This document shows, piece by piece, positions 57,434 through 64,000 of a stretch of 64,000 nucleotides of DNA. The stretch covers positions 2,692,001-2,756,000 of the forward strand of contig NZ_CP082333.1 of the NCBI RefSeq assembly GCF_019890935.1. The letters are read 5' to 3'. Positions within the stretch are counted from its first letter, which is position 1; each line of letters opens with the position of its first letter. The translations under genes were made by a program, and so were the position numbers. Below the pieces are notes generated by a model that saw only the letters and a program-made list of their open reading frames with translations, did not search any database and was not told the DNA's origin. This stretch comes from Exiguobacterium acetylicum (lineage in GTDB: Bacteria > Bacillota > Bacilli > Exiguobacteriales > Exiguobacteriaceae).

Positions 57434-57470
57434 GAAAAAGCCAGCTCCCGAAGTAATCTGGGACTGGCTC
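57434..57470 (-). terminator. Intrinsic terminator
   Basis: On the minus strand AGCCAGTCCC pairs with GGGAGCTGGCT (small bulge) and a T tract follows. It ends the island gene upstream and insulates the two-component promoter. Confidence 0.8.
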
Positions 57471-57585
57471 GAACTTATTTCATCATAACAGGCTAGATTA
57501 AAAATCCGCCCCAAACATTTATCTTTTAACGCTCGATAACTTAGCAAAATACCAGATGTTGCTTTTTATATTTATAGAAAAAAGG

Positions 57586-58275
57586 TTAATCCTTTTCTTT
57601 TGTGACATCTACAGTATAATCACTCTCATAATTAATCGGAACAATTTGTCCATCTATCGTTAAACGAAATCCTCTTTGTTCGAGCTCAAGCTCCATTTTC
57701 ATATCAGCAGGAGTATGTCCTTTTAAATCTTCAAGCCACACATCAGGTTTTGGATAAAAATTAGCTGGACGATTTTCGAGAATGGACAAAGCTTTCTCAA
57801 GACCATCATAGTATCCATTCATATATGAATTGTAGTCTGCTGACACGTCTTCTAATGAACTCGATATAAAATCACGGATGATTAATGATTGTGGAAATAG
57901 TACTCCGGCTTCCAGATGGGGCGTCATTTTTTCCTTAAGCATTTCGTATAACTTTTCTTCTGACTCTTTTTCTTTATGTAATAAGTAGTATTCTACAACT
58001 TCAAGTATTTCATCAACAGTTGCACCATAATCTGCATCAAAGCTTTTTGAACCGAAACTAAGCATTAATTCTGGATTTTCATCTGAAATAATACTTGCTG
58101 ATATTGAGACAGGTTCTATCCAAAACGCAAAGCGAATCATTCCAAAAGAATTCTCTCTCATAATTTCAGTCAGTGGTTTCCCCTCGTTTAGTTTAAATAG
58201 AATTTTTTCCGATGCTTCTTCTATCATATCATCCGCGGTATAAATTAATATCTTTTCTTCTTCTGAACAATACAT
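57586..58275 (-). CDS. Hypothetical acidic protein of the AT-rich island
   Basis: This 229-residue acidic, helix-rich protein has no signal peptide. Visible segments are KILIYTADDMIEEASEKILF, SFDADYGATVDEILEVVEYY, and a C-terminal QRGFRLTIDGQIVPINYESD. No family recognised. AGGAGG lies just before the ATG. It differs from genes to its left by much lower GC. The gap 58276-58495 upstream is AT-rich with no supported gene. Confidence 0.7.
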   Translation of the reverse strand: MYCSEEEKILIYTADDMIEEASEKILFKLNEGKPLTEIMRENSFGMIRFAFWIEPVSISASIISDENPELMLSFGSKSFDADYGATVDEILEVVEYYLLHKEKESEEKLYEMLKEKMTPHLEAGVLFPQSLIIRDFISSSLEDVSADYNSYMNGYYDGLEKALSILENRPANFYPKPDVWLEDLKGHTPADMKMELELEQRGFRLTIDGQIVPINYESDYTVDVTKEKD

Positions 58276-58495
58276 GAACCATTCCTCCTATACGTATCAA
58301 CTCTTTTTATGCTTACTAAAAAACGAGTATAAGCTTACTTACAACCAGCGAAGCATACTTAAAAATAACCACTCTTTAATTATATGTTAATTTTTGATAT
58401 TTTATAACTTATTTTGTTTTCTTCACGCAATTTAATTATACAGATTTCTTTTTTTCACATTGATGATCAAAGATTACTTACGACTTACTTAAAAT

Positions 58496-58527
58496 TAAAA
58501 AAGTCTCCTCGTTCGAGAAGACTTTTA
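58496..58527 (-). terminator. Intrinsic terminator
   Basis: On the minus strand AAAAGTCTTCTCG pairs with CGAGGAGACTTTT and T residues follow. It lies after the isoprenoid-synthase-like gene. Confidence 0.88.
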
Positions 58528-58536
58528 TCAAAAATA

Positions 58537-60027
58537 TTATATACTAAATTCTCTTTTGGATTTTATATATAAGAGTGCATTTTTAAATTCTGCGAAAGTT
58601 GCCATTGAGTCAATTTCAATTTTGTATTTCTTTGATATTTTTTCAAAGTCTACTCCTGTATGCGAACTAATACTATTCAAAAAATCATCTTTGAAATAAG
58701 TTTGATTGATCAGATAGAATTTTAATAGATCTAAACGAACTGCGAAGAGTTCCATTCTTCTAAAAAATACTGGTCTTTGTAACGAAGGAATCAATGTTGT
58801 AATTTCTTCGAATTTTTTTTGTAAGCCAACAATCCCATACAATGCATCTTCAACATTCTTATCCTCCATTATTCGTTTTGACCAAATTGTACTTATCCCC
58901 TCTTCTAAATCAATCTCGATATCGTGTAAATCATCCATTAGTTGAAAGATTGCACCCATCCCAAAAAAGTGCCGGAATGCCATTTTGTCGAGTTTACCTA
59001 GCGCAATATAACCATAAAACGCAAATGCATAACCACCCTTTTTTAAAGAAATTTCTATGATATCTTTCTCATCTAGTGTTTCATTTTTTTGACGCAATGA
59101 ATGAACTTGCCATTTATGCAATTCTACTAATATTTCAACTAATTCAGGGTTTGACTCCACTGGGTATTCATCATAAATAATATCGATAAGACGAAACACA
59201 GCATTTAATTCTTCGTATTCACTAATGATTTCTTGCCCTTCGATTTTCTTCTGCATTTGTTGAAGCATCTCATCAGTGACATCATTTCGATCGATAAAAT
59301 CATCTTCAGCCGGATGAATTGCTGAAGCTGCAAACATGATTCTTCTCATTTTTTCAGGTAATAACAATTCTCCGGTAGTCATGACACCGTGTATGTATAA
59401 ATTGAAATAATTAAAGAGACATCGTTGTTCTCCATCTTCAACATATGAAATTTCATATTTATTACTAAATCGCATTAAATCTTCTAGGCACTCATAAATG
59501 ATATACCAAATAGCAACTGCATAATGTTCCACTTTAGGTTTCCAAAAAGAACGGTGACTATTATCAATATACTGATTCAGCTGACGAAACATGTCTTCTA
59601 ACTTTAGTTCTTTCGACTGCTGTATATCAGCAAAATGATTATCTAGTACCTTAATCATTTTTTCATTTTTATCTATTTCAGGAATAGCAAAATAGTCAAA
59701 TAGACTTACTTCTTTTTCTTTAATTGACTTAAAATACTCTTCAGAGAACGAGTCTACAATGAAATTTACCTCTTCTTCAATAGTTTCATGAGTACTTGGA
59801 ACGTCTTCGTTGTCGTTGTACATGGATATAGCAAATTCCGCCAAACTATCAATTGAACTTTTGCTAAACTTTAGAACTTCAGTTTCCTGCTGCTGATATA
59901 CACGAATTTCTTGATGAAGATGCTTCCGTAACTTAAACTGTTCAAGTTTATGAATTTTTTTATTGAAATCGTATTGAACCCATTTCATATAAATTTTTTT
60001 AAATAAATATTTTTTTACCATTTGCAT
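58537..60027 (-). CDS. Isoprenoid-synthase-like protein with two DDxxD motifs
   Basis: This 496-residue protein has two aspartate-rich motifs in the order and surroundings of class I isoprenoid synthases. DDFID sits in IHPAEDDFIDRNDVTDE (near residue 250). FQLMDDLHD sits in GAIFQLMDDLHDIEIDLEEG (near 375), like the FQxxDDxxD second motif of prenyl diphosphate synthases. The first 170 residues are an extra basic and coiled helical part. Such enzymes bind Mg-diphosphate of prenyl substrates. Product and pathway are unknown; no terpenoid genes are near. AGGAG lies 6 nt before the ATG. Confidence 0.7.
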   Translation of the reverse strand: MQMVKKYLFKKIYMKWVQYDFNKKIHKLEQFKLRKHLHQEIRVYQQQETEVLKFSKSSIDSLAEFAISMYNDNEDVPSTHETIEEEVNFIVDSFSEEYFKSIKEKEVSLFDYFAIPEIDKNEKMIKVLDNHFADIQQSKELKLEDMFRQLNQYIDNSHRSFWKPKVEHYAVAIWYIIYECLEDLMRFSNKYEISYVEDGEQRCLFNYFNLYIHGVMTTGELLLPEKMRRIMFAASAIHPAEDDFIDRNDVTDEMLQQMQKKIEGQEIISEYEELNAVFRLIDIIYDEYPVESNPELVEILVELHKWQVHSLRQKNETLDEKDIIEISLKKGGYAFAFYGYIALGKLDKMAFRHFFGMGAIFQLMDDLHDIEIDLEEGISTIWSKRIMEDKNVEDALYGIVGLQKKFEEITTLIPSLQRPVFFRRMELFAVRLDLLKFYLINQTYFKDDFLNSISSHTGVDFEKISKKYKIEIDSMATFAEFKNALLYIKSKREFSI

Positions 60028-60114
60028 TGTCAACTCCTAACAATTCTAAATTTCATTACATAAAAACAGAAGCATCTAAAAATACGAATAGATGATTCCA
60101 GCGTAAGATATCGT

Positions 60115-61686
60115 CTAAAAATTAAATCGTAATCTAATTGTTTCATTAATCAGTGTTTTATTATGACAATATGTACTTCCTTCATTTCGGAAATACTTAT
60201 TATCACCATCTCCACCTGAATAGGATAAGAAATTAAAACTACCATTTATATAATGAATATCATCACAAATCAATAATTTTTCATGCGTCTGTCCAAATTT
60301 CAATTTAAATAGATCATGATACGGTTCAGCAATACGAACTAATTCTTTAGCAATTTTTTGTGTATTCAAGTCTCTAAAATCTTGTTTCTCATCTAAATGA
60401 TCAGTAATGCCACAAATTATTCGAACCTTTACACCACGTTTTAATAAATTTATTAGATCTCTTTTAAATTCATCGTTAATTATATAATTGTTCATCCACG
60501 GACTAATGATATAAAGTGATTTCTCTGCATTTTTCAAATAACTTAAAAATTGCTCTCGAATATTATAGTTCATAATATATTGAATCGAGACATCTTCAGT
60601 TTTTAAACTTTTAAGATTTGTTAATGACTGTTCATATTCATTTACTTTAATTTTCATTTCTTCGTTATCTAGAATATCGTCTTCATGACGCTCATTTATC
60701 GAAACTTTAGGCTCTTGAATATCAATTACTTCGACAGTTTTATCTTCGGTCGAACTTTGCATTAACTCATTTTCTATTATAGACACTGGTTTTACTAAAT
60801 TAATCATCTCGTTAGCATAGTTTTTCAATGCATTCAAAATAGAATCAATAGATACTTGCTCTGCATCATCAACAATTAAACTATCAAAATAATTATCATC
60901 TGCCAAATTCATGATCGACTCCGTGACTTGTGGGTCAATATAATTTTTTCCACAAGGATCATGAGCTAACAATTTAAACTCTCCCTCAGAGTTTTTAAAC
61001 ACTAAAATACGATACTCATGATAGTACACTTCTCGATCTGTCAATAATTCAAAGTTTTCAATATTAACAATTTTCTGCGATTCGATATTTTCATTTTTTA
61101 CTTTTTCGACTTCATCGATTTTATCAAGAGCTTGCCGAGAAAGCTCTTTAAAATGTAAGTCAGATTCATACTTTGGAAAGACTGTAGGCGTAATGACAAT
61201 TTGATTAGTTGCCTTTTCAATATCTTTAAACTTTTTAAATTGATGCTTCTCAGACGATCCAAAGAAATCTAGTTTATATTGATCACTAAGACCGTCATAA
61301 TACCAATCAGTAAACATATTTTTAGGTTCATATCGCGTTCTCTTTTTAATTAATTTTGTGCCCATAGTTGTAAATTGATATGTTACTTGACCATTTATAT
61401 TTTTTGTAGCCAAGTAATTACTATCCAACAATGGTTTTACTGCTGCTTCAAAAACTTCTTCATCCAACGCAAGTACGAACATAATTTTTTCTCTTACCGA
61501 AATACCACGCTCTATGCACCTACATATAAAATCTTCTACCATTTTCAAATCAGATTCATATAAATAATCCATCTGTAAAGTAACTTTGAAAAATGGAATC
61601 CACACTCCATAAGAACCGCTTAAATGAAACTCATCCATGTAGGCCTCATACCTCTCATGGATTCGTTCAATTGTATTTAATTCCAT
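60115..61686 (-). CDS. PLD-superfamily protein, candidate nuclease
   Basis: This 523-residue protein has a C-terminal phospholipase-D-like domain. It shows LYIISPWMNNYIINDEFKRD, RGVKVRIICGITDH and the catalytic HxK motif in QTHEKLLICDD, followed by NGSFNFLSYSGG. Only one HxK is seen, so a dimer would be needed. The N-terminal part looks like a helical or winged-helix region and the middle is unknown. Its start overlaps the helicase stop by 10 nt, so the two are translated together. PLD nucleases beside helicases are frequent in phage-defence loci. Confidence 0.78.
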   Translation of the reverse strand: MELNTIERIHERYEAYMDEFHLSGSYGVWIPFFKVTLQMDYLYESDLKMVEDFICRCIERGISVREKIMFVLALDEEVFEAAVKPLLDSNYLATKNINGQVTYQFTTMGTKLIKKRTRYEPKNMFTDWYYDGLSDQYKLDFFGSSEKHQFKKFKDIEKATNQIVITPTVFPKYESDLHFKELSRQALDKIDEVEKVKNENIESQKIVNIENFELLTDREVYYHEYRILVFKNSEGEFKLLAHDPCGKNYIDPQVTESIMNLADDNYFDSLIVDDAEQVSIDSILNALKNYANEMINLVKPVSIIENELMQSSTEDKTVEVIDIQEPKVSINERHEDDILDNEEMKIKVNEYEQSLTNLKSLKTEDVSIQYIMNYNIREQFLSYLKNAEKSLYIISPWMNNYIINDEFKRDLINLLKRGVKVRIICGITDHLDEKQDFRDLNTQKIAKELVRIAEPYHDLFKLKFGQTHEKLLICDDIHYINGSFNFLSYSGGDGDNKYFRNEGSTYCHNKTLINETIRLRFNF

Positions 61687-63746
61687 ACGGCTTCACCATC
61701 CTTTACAAAGTTCTTTAAAGGTAGAACTGAATTTTTATTTTTTAAATCCTTTATCATTCGATCAATCTTTCTTACTTTTGATTGATTACTATCGATGAAA
61801 TTGATATTGCCAATAAAAATAGATAATTCTTGTGCTCTAGATAAAGCAACATTCATTCGAGATTCTTCTCGAATATGTCCAATTTGTCCATTGTGGTTAT
61901 TTCGTACTAGACTATTGATTACGATATTTTTTTCTCTTCCTTGGAATGCATCAACTGTATTAATTTCAATATCAAGCATTGTATACTGCTTCGTATCAAT
62001 AAATTCTAGCAACTTATGCATCTGCGCTTTATACGGACTGATGATCCCTACCGTTTTAGGAACTTCCAAATGATCATTTAACCAATTAAGGATAGATTCA
62101 ATAGCAAAAACTTCTCCTTCATTCGAGAAAGAAGTATTTTCTTTTTTCTCAAGGAATCGATCCGTATTCGGAGTATCTACCCAATAAAATGCATTAGAAA
62201 GAATATTTTCTAATGAATGTTTTTTATCCTTTACGTTATCACCATCTAGTAACTTATTGTCATAATAATATCTAGATACTGCATCCGAAATTCCTGGACT
62301 CATCCGGAATTGTTTATTTAAAAAAGTCTTTAACATTGGATGTGCGTCTTCATACATTAATCCAAATAATGACTTTTTATATACATTATTAATTTCTTCA
62401 GAATCAACAATGTTATCTTTTTCTAACTTCACTAAAATATCTCGTTCTAATGTCGGACTAATTTGTTTATGGTCACCAACTAATACAATCTTCTTTCCTC
62501 TGATTAAAGGAATGAGTAACTCCATACTAGAGGCGCGGGCTGCTTCATCTAAAATCACATAATCAAATTCAGTATTTAAGAAGTGATTGTTATTTGTTGA
62601 GGCAATTCCTAAGCACGTTGCGCAAATAAGATTCGAAGAGTTAATATAAATGTCTTCAAAATTTTCTTGATAATATTGCAATTTTTTATTCCATTCATTT
62701 TGAATATCTTGAGACATCTCGTACAATTCTAATTCTTCTTTGTTGAATTTATACGATGAAATAAAATTAGATGTACGTTCTAACTCTTGAGAAACAGAAA
62801 GACTTTCAAAAGTTATTCCATAGTATGACAAGTACGTTTGAATATGATGATTTTGCTGATAAGTCAATAACGCTTCTTCAAATTTCTTAATTATCGCCTT
62901 CTTTTTGGCTCTTTCTACATCAAGTTCCGAAATACGCACTTCTTGTTTCTCCATGGCATTTTGAATCGAAATTATTTCTTCATGTTCTGTTAGCTGATTT
63001 AATAAATGGACATACGATATAACCGACGAAAATTCTTTTTTAAACTGATCGATATCACTCCACAATGTTATGAATTTTTCTTTAGAAATTGAAGAAGTAC
63101 CGAAATGTTTTTCCCAAATAGAAGAGTTATTAGAAATTGCTTTTTCAATCATCTCTTTTATTTCTAAAGCTAAATTTCTTAAACCAAGTGCCTTTTTATT
63201 CATGCCAGACATCTTTTCATCAATTTTTGACAACTTATATTTATACTCGTGTAAATCCATTTCAAGATCATTCATAGCGGCATTTAGATTTTGGATATCT
63301 TTCATCAAATAAGTTTTCATTTGTTCTGATAAACCATTATATTGATTTTCTAAATCACTGATTGCACTATTTATTTGTTGCATTTCTTCAACGATTTGCT
63401 CCATTTCAGAAATACTTAGTACTCTTTCTTCTTTCAATGATTTAATTTCAGCAACTATCGCTTGGATTTCTTCAATCAAACCCTTATAAATACTCAAGTT
63501 GTTAATATTTTCTTCCGATAGTCGAATTTTATTCATTAAATCAGCACTCAATTTATTTTTTTGTAAACTATTTAAACTATTTGCTTGAATTTCCTTAATA
63601 TGATTTAAATAACTTAAGTTTTCTCCAAGCAGTTTATTTTTTGTTTGAAATTCTATATTTAATACGCGTAATTTATCTTTTAAAGAAGTAAGCTTATGCT
63701 CAAGTTGAGAAAATGCTTCATTATTTACAGTATAGTTTTGCTTCAT
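61677..63746 (-). CDS. SF1 helicase, coiled coil and C-terminal motor part
   Basis: This 689-residue frame begins with about 330 residues of coiled coil. The UPF1-like SF1 helicase core then follows from motif II on: FDYVILDEAARASSMELL, VLVGDHKQISPT, KQFRMSPGISDA, VDAFQGREKNIVINS and MNVALSRAQ. Walker A is missing here; it must lie in the upstream frame, whose last codons overlap this ATG. A coiled coil between motifs Ia and II is known in such helicases. The two frames therefore look like one protein cut near a run of seven A. Confidence 0.82.
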   Translation of the reverse strand: MKQNYTVNNEAFSQLEHKLTSLKDKLRVLNIEFQTKNKLLGENLSYLNHIKEIQANSLNSLQKNKLSADLMNKIRLSEENINNLSIYKGLIEEIQAIVAEIKSLKEERVLSISEMEQIVEEMQQINSAISDLENQYNGLSEQMKTYLMKDIQNLNAAMNDLEMDLHEYKYKLSKIDEKMSGMNKKALGLRNLALEIKEMIEKAISNNSSIWEKHFGTSSISKEKFITLWSDIDQFKKEFSSVISYVHLLNQLTEHEEIISIQNAMEKQEVRISELDVERAKKKAIIKKFEEALLTYQQNHHIQTYLSYYGITFESLSVSQELERTSNFISSYKFNKEELELYEMSQDIQNEWNKKLQYYQENFEDIYINSSNLICATCLGIASTNNNHFLNTEFDYVILDEAARASSMELLIPLIRGKKIVLVGDHKQISPTLERDILVKLEKDNIVDSEEINNVYKKSLFGLMYEDAHPMLKTFLNKQFRMSPGISDAVSRYYYDNKLLDGDNVKDKKHSLENILSNAFYWVDTPNTDRFLEKKENTSFSNEGEVFAIESILNWLNDHLEVPKTVGIISPYKAQMHKLLEFIDTKQYTMLDIEINTVDAFQGREKNIVINSLVRNNHNGQIGHIREESRMNVALSRAQELSIFIGNINFIDSNQSKVRKIDRMIKDLKNKNSVLPLKNFVKDGEAVWN

Positions 63747-64000
63747 ATTAATAATTTTTTTATTTCATTGTTCATATATTCATGAGCTTGAAATAGTGAT
63801 TTAGTTTTTTCTAATTCTGTTCTCACTTTCTTAAAATGGTTAGGACGATTTGATAATGTAGTAGTAATTTCTTTTTGCAAATTCTCGACGCGCTGCTCTA
63901 ACGCATACTGGATACTGTCTAATTCAAATTTTTCTTCAGAGCCAATACGAATAGCACGCACATTATCCTTATGACCAATTCTTTGTAAAACATTATCTAC
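63743..64000 (-). CDS. SF1 helicase, N-terminal part (continues beyond window)
   Basis: The frame is open to the window edge. It reads VDNVLQRIGHKDNVRAIRIG, typical of the stretch after motif Ia in UPF1/DNA2-type helicases, then coiled coil (ALEQRVENLQKEITTTL) ending NNEIKKLLI. The Walker A motif should lie just outside. Its TGA overlaps the ATG of the following frame. A -1 shift at AAAAAAA (63755-63761 on the complementary strand) would join both frames. Confidence 0.75.
   Translation of the reverse strand, partial: VDNVLQRIGHKDNVRAIRIGSEEKFELDSIQYALEQRVENLQKEITTTLSNRPNHFKKVRTELEKTKSLFQAHEYMNNEIKKLLI

Follow-up and report, generated by a model that had tools for sequence, protein, structure and literature searches.

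A Putative Two-DDxxD Class I Isoprenoid Synthase Encoded at the End of a Mokosh-like Operon in Exiguobacterium acetylicum

Class I isoprenoid synthases form a superfamily that is recognized by two Asp-rich motifs. In the trans-isoprenyl diphosphate synthases, the second motif has the form that we take to be PROSITE pattern PS00444, while PS00723 presumably describes an RR[GH] stretch after the first motif. RR[GH] holds the diphosphates in chain-elongating synthases. Class I terpene cyclases combine a DDxxD first motif with a second motif of the NSE/DTE type. Mokosh type I is a defense system in which MkoA, a UPF1-like helicase, lies next to MkoB, a phospholipase D (PLD)-family protein, and MkoA carries an N-terminal protein-kinase part. 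Fungal chimeric terpene synthases (PTTS) are reported by a 2021 paper to occur only in fungi (PMC8307374).

The window is a stretch of 64,000 nucleotides from the Exiguobacterium acetylicum genome and contains the gene for P0001, a protein of 496 residues. P0001 is reasonably likely to be a metal-dependent enzyme with the class I isoprenoid-synthase fold that belongs to a family undescribed in Pfam and NCBIfam and is encoded by the last gene of an acquired, Mokosh-like operon.

The P0001 Gene and Its Asp-rich Motifs

The original prediction placed an isoprenoid-synthase-like gene at 58537-60027, and this span is correct, with the gene on the minus strand (Table 1). Translation starts at an ATG at position 60027, with the ribosome-binding site TTAGGAG just 5′ of it, and stops at 58537; frame 1 of the plus strand contains many stops over the same stretch. 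The core of P0001 that aligns with its relatives covers approximately residues 225-460 and is preceded by an N-terminal helical region (residues 1-220). This region had been described as a basic extension, which applies to residues 1-60 (14 Lys and Arg versus 6 Asp and Glu) but not to residues 61-230, which are acidic (18 versus 33).

Table 1. Features of the P0001 locus, with positions in the window
Feature	Position	Strand	Basis or remark
Island left end, ~47-bp terminator-like sequence	57437..57483		Imperfect repeat at the right end, ~70374, outside the window
229-residue orphan protein	57586..58275	-	Last gene of the island, beyond the terminator
Terminator-like hairpin, 12 pairs and T-rich tail	58499..58526	-	Directly 3′ of the P0001 stop
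P0001, two-DDxxD class I isoprenoid-synthase-like protein, 496 residues	58537..60027	-	ORF, motifs, relatives
Second Asp-rich motif with context, GAIFQLMDDLHDIEID, residues 358-373	58909..58956	-	Sequence, alignment
First Asp-rich motif DDFID, residues 242-246	59290..59304	-	Asp-242 and Asp-246 invariant in 34 of 34 members
PLD-family protein, MkoB-like (P0005)	60115..61686	-	PADLOC MkoB, E 2.8e-42
UPF1-like SF1 helicase, MkoA-like, C-terminal part (P0004)	61677..63746	-	MkoA, E 5.5e-96
Helicase N-terminal part, Walker A (P0003)	63743..64000, on to ~65158 outside the window	-	MkoA, E 1.5e-35

The two DDxxD motifs reported in the same prediction are real. They start at residues 242 and 365 (DDLHD) and lie 123 residues apart, a plausible spacing for the two Asp-rich motifs of the class I superfamily. 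Because only 37 of 20,000 shuffled P0001 sequences give two DDxxD motifs 100-150 residues apart, and because both motifs are conserved in relatives, they are not attributable to chance. Conservation was assessed in an alignment of 34 members consisting of P0001, three relatives of ~400 residues, and 30 N-domains of larger proteins (the 30 of the 83 family matches described below that have a locus entry). Its invariant positions, in P0001 numbering, are Asp-242, Asp-246, Glu-287, Gln-307, Gly-358, Gln-362, Asp-365, Asp-366, Asp-369, Asp-373, and Thr-380. A Lys located 35 residues before the first Asp of motif 2 is present in all 30 N-domains and in all four other members.

The second motif of P0001 has the prenyltransferase signature in its PS00444 form (MGAIFQLMDDLHD at residue 357). 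This strict form is shared by two of the three ~400-residue relatives and by none of the 30 N-domains; the relaxed form GxxxQxxDDxxDxxxD is found in all 34 members. Of the 1,856 ORFs with 200 residues or more, 24 contain the strict pattern, and all 24 encode members of the P0001 family, synthase domains fused to them, or the two polyprenyl synthases of the host. RR[GH] after the first motif, as in PS00723, occurs in none of the 34 members versus all 30 fused C-domains. The NSE/DTE-type second motif of terpene cyclases is likewise found in none of the 34. The lack of both RR[GH] and NSE suggests that the P0001 family ionizes one allylic diphosphate and does not add IPP.

The GxxFQxxDDxxD form of motif 2 is that of prenyltransferases and would also suit a chain-elongating trans-prenyltransferase like the host's own. 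This role is very unlikely for P0001, since RR[GH] is missing throughout its family and the genome already encodes two normal polyprenyl synthases. Both lie away from P0001, in agreement with the earlier statement that the gene is far from terpenoid genes.

Family Assignment and Relatives of P0001

P0001 reaches no Pfam or NCBIfam cut-off. Below threshold, SQS_PSY matches residues 221-289 (E 0.087) and polyprenyl_synt (PF00348) matches residues 295-373 (E 0.0085), so that the two occupy consecutive places; the PF00348 score is 15.8 bits versus a cut-off of 27. The best Pfam match by E value is KH_SLS1_2 (0.0013), which is also under its cut-off; a KH domain was considered and rejected. P0001 has no match among solved structures by sequence. 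Profile-profile comparison with polyprenyl and prenyl-diphosphate synthases gives weak links, with values of 14% (pairwise E 0.002) for profile A2, which is built from P0001 and its three ~400-residue relatives as matched in the phylum search, 7.8% (0.0045) for P0001 alone, 1.3% (0.041) for the three relatives, and 0.3% (0.18) for the N-domains alone. Unrelated controls give 0.0-0.4%.

Single-sequence AlphaFold prediction yields a pLDDT of 37.7 for P0001 and 47.1 for residues 215-470, which is too poor to judge the fold. Searches of the poor 215-470 model with Foldseek and VIA-align 2 return no match at E <= 0.001, and the hits are dominated by designed repeats, 14-3-3 proteins, and TPR-like chains; the prenyltransferase-domain row 9b3t_F (Z 5.0) is level with unrelated rows and is given no weight. 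The class I fold of the original prediction, although unconfirmed by these models (pLDDT 38 and 47), is suggested by the geometry of the motifs, the GxxFQxxDDxxD sequence, the consecutive sub-threshold Pfam matches, and a relative that is fused to a prenyl-diphosphate synthase.

The weak profile links and low-confidence models would also be expected of a pseudo-enzyme, or of an all-helical protein of unrelated fold in which the DDxxD motifs serve some other metal-binding function. Such a protein is highly improbable here, given that eleven positions around the motifs are identical in all 34 members, which span distant Bacillota, and that some relatives carry a fused prenyl-diphosphate synthase domain. 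The P0001 family is instead taken to represent a third kind of class I isoprenoid synthase, the “two-DDxxD” type, and its standing as a putative isoprenoid-synthase-like family that is undescribed in Pfam and NCBIfam is well supported by sequence, though not by structure.

In a phylum sample of 398 genomes, P0001 matches itself and three relatives of 397-419 residues (E 2.7e-20, 5.8e-16, and 4.2e-21), which come from other Bacillota and carry both Asp-rich motifs. Among 38 genomes of its order, only its own genome matches, and 398 Bacilli genomes contain no genuine relative, with a single chance match (L004) that is read as a YycH-like protein. No relatives are found in plasmids, phages, or viral_contigs, nor in genome_contigs by peptide patterns. 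Over the same 398 phylum genomes, A2 adds one further genome, in which it matches the N-terminal half of an ~800-residue protein (E 1e-6). Its five matches in 185 Bacilli comprise P0001, known bidomain proteins or near copies in two genomes (G095 and G201), a further bidomain protein in G197 (L158), which is from a different family of genomes, and a match in G047 (L159) that is read as chance, none of the listed ORFs there carrying the motifs.

This ~800-residue, Paenibacillaceae-type protein is composed of an N-domain of the P0001 family and an FPP-synthase-like C-domain. By Pfam, the C-domain is a polyprenyl synthetase (E 1.2e-49), and that of L127 matches NCBIfam FPPsyn (E 2e-64). The kinship of its N-domain with P0001 follows from profiles built without any bidomain protein. 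A profile of the three ~400-residue relatives alone detects P0001 (E 2e-28) and the Paenibacillaceae-type N-domains (from about 7e-9 and weaker), and finds nothing beyond the P0001 family among 7,602 ORFs. In profile-profile comparison, A2 matches an alignment of eight N-domains over residues 231-387 with 96% probability (E 4e-9); P0001 alone gives 3%, which is not significant. Motif 1 is preceded by 165-172 residues in the ~400-residue relatives and by about 235 in the Paenibacillaceae-type relatives, so the length of P0001, which had been called unusual, is less odd than it appeared.

Profile A3 consists of A2 and one bidomain protein, and its matches measure spread rather than kinship with P0001. 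It matches 83 of 148 genomes of this Paenibacillaceae-type family, or about half; one match is partial (E 4e-4), and the remaining matches fall within open reading frames of ~790-875 residues. No gene neighbor is common to at least 4 of 11 bidomain loci. Bidomain genes are located at L125:829-3222, L127-L156, and L158, and their product resembles a bacterial version of the chimeric terpene synthases of fungi.

A Mokosh-like Operon in an AT-rich Island

P0001 lies in an AT-rich island, as originally described: the GC content is 30.2% for positions 57483-64000 and 48.9% for 1-57482. The island extends from ~57482 to ~70374, past the end of the window, and covers 12.9 kb with 31% GC. The left flank was searched in seven congeners. 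In three of them (G020, G030, and G035), the flanks adjoin, one copy of the ~47-bp sequence is present, and the island is absent; G028 shares the flank in rearranged form, and G021, G022, and G037 have only short matches.

The gene order is Hsp70, MkoA-like helicase (split), MkoB-like PLD protein, and then P0001 as the last gene before the terminator. The Hsp70 gene (Pfam E 3.4e-103) is upstream of the helicase on the same strand, and P0001 is downstream of P0005, from which it is separated by 87 bp without a terminator-like site. The hairpin that follows P0001 is the probable end of the operon. The original prediction that P0001 sits alone is thus wrong, as its gene closes a run of genes on the same strand. 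The same prediction named neighboring helicase and nuclease genes but understated the context, since these genes form a Mokosh-like defense operon that ends in P0001. The adjacency of an MkoA-like helicase and an MkoB-like PLD protein is that of Mokosh type I. The kinase part of MkoA is not matched: in the MkoA profile, the N-terminal part of the helicase aligns from position 317 onward only, and its 25 best listed Pfam matches include no kinase.

The two helicase parts overlap by ATGA (63743-63746), after a run of seven A (63755-63761), and the C-terminal part is read in frame -1. The split may reflect a frameshift, an indel, or an assembly error. Ahead of Hsp70, the operon begins with genes for three smaller uncharacterized proteins (L002:8854-10700), one of which (L002 10293-10700) has a CFVATAAYG-type stretch in the second half of its sequence. 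For the 229-residue orphan protein, a Csx1 match (E 0.02) was rejected.

Related operons occur elsewhere. Among 92 loci with a relative of P0005 (L022-L113), 81 have a helicase relative and four (L031, L033, L077, and L078) also have an Hsp70 relative. None of the 92 carries a P0001 relative, an absence that is incomplete because some loci end at contig ends. The closest operon, from Carnobacterium jeotgali, encodes the helicase as one ORF of 1,143 residues and lacks a P0001 relative, and no Mokosh-like genes are found near the three ~400-residue relatives. The differing neighbors of the helicase-PLD core suggest that it takes varied partners, and P0001 could be one such partner, from one genome.

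Among these neighbors, L031 (5920-14008), L033, L077, and L078 have MkoA-MkoB followed by an uncharacterized protein of 665-679 residues and an Hsp70-like protein, and the L031 operon is flanked by rpoC and the rpsL region. In Carnobacterium jeotgali (L034:2458-11365), two dynamin-like GTPases, one of them LeoBC-like according to PADLOC, are encoded directly upstream of the MkoA/MkoB-like pair.

P0001 stands about an even chance of being an ordinary enzyme of secondary or lipid metabolism that is unrelated cargo of the island and has no defense role, which is compatible with its assignment as an enzyme. The 92 PLD loci (81 of which include a helicase relative) and the Carnobacterium jeotgali operon are in keeping with this, as are the ~400-residue and Paenibacillaceae-type relatives, which lack Mokosh-like neighbors. 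The position of P0001 argues for a closer tie, as the gene is co-oriented with the operon, follows the PLD gene at the short distance given above, and precedes the terminator; the island holds little besides the operon.

P0001 might alternatively act as a Mokosh-like effector or modulator, such that infection leads it to consume or divert prenyl diphosphates and thereby halt growth, or to make a membrane-active terpenoid. Its place at the end of a defense operon in a mobile island and its conserved ionization motifs speak for this role. The association with defense rests on a single case, and the literature searched contains no paper that joins Mokosh with an isoprenoid synthase; an effector is unlikely. 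Nor does any paper in that literature combine Mokosh with Hsp70 and a helicase. It is similarly doubtful that an Hsp70-containing, Mokosh-like anti-phage system employs P0001 to couple phage sensing to prenyl-diphosphate consumption or conversion, and we know of no such effector chemistry in bacterial immunity.

Proposed Reaction and Comparison with Known Systems

As a class I enzyme, P0001 would use its two Asp-rich motifs to hold three Mg2+ and to anchor an allylic prenyl diphosphate by its diphosphate group, and the conserved Lys upstream of motif 2 may aid diphosphate binding. The substrate is probably FPP or GGPP from the cell's own polyprenyl-synthase pathway. Because RR[GH] is absent, one substrate would most likely be ionized and then cyclized or released as an alcohol or olefin. 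The gene is carried last in a horizontally acquired operon of Hsp70, MkoA-like helicase, and MkoB-like PLD genes, with which it is most likely co-transcribed.

The P0001 family has neither the elongation hallmark nor the classical cyclization hallmark and is absent from Pfam and NCBIfam. Its FPP-synthase-like fusion predicts self-sufficient bacterial terpenoid enzymes. If the link to defense is true, prenyl-diphosphate chemistry would join the known anti-phage effectors.

P0001 shares a DDxxD first motif, GxxFQxxDDxxD, and a Lys upstream of motif 2 with the trans-isoprenyl diphosphate synthases of PF00348, but it lacks RR[GH], falls below the family cut-off, and has a long N-terminal region. 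It has the DDxxD first motif in common with class I terpene cyclases, whereas the second motif of its family is DDxxDxxxD rather than NSE/DTE, and no terpene-cyclase family matches it above its cut-off. Fusion to a prenyl-diphosphate synthase, as in some P0001 relatives, is described for fungal PTTS (PMC8307374); the P0001 family is bacterial. The N-domain of the ~800-residue Paenibacillaceae-type protein is homologous to the P0001 family across motifs 1 to 2, but P0001 itself has no fused synthase domain and resides in a defense island. As in Mokosh type I, the neighbors of P0001 are a UPF1-like helicase and an adjacent PLD protein; unlike Mokosh type I, the helicase is in two ORFs, its kinase part is unmatched, and the pair is flanked by Hsp70 upstream and P0001 downstream.
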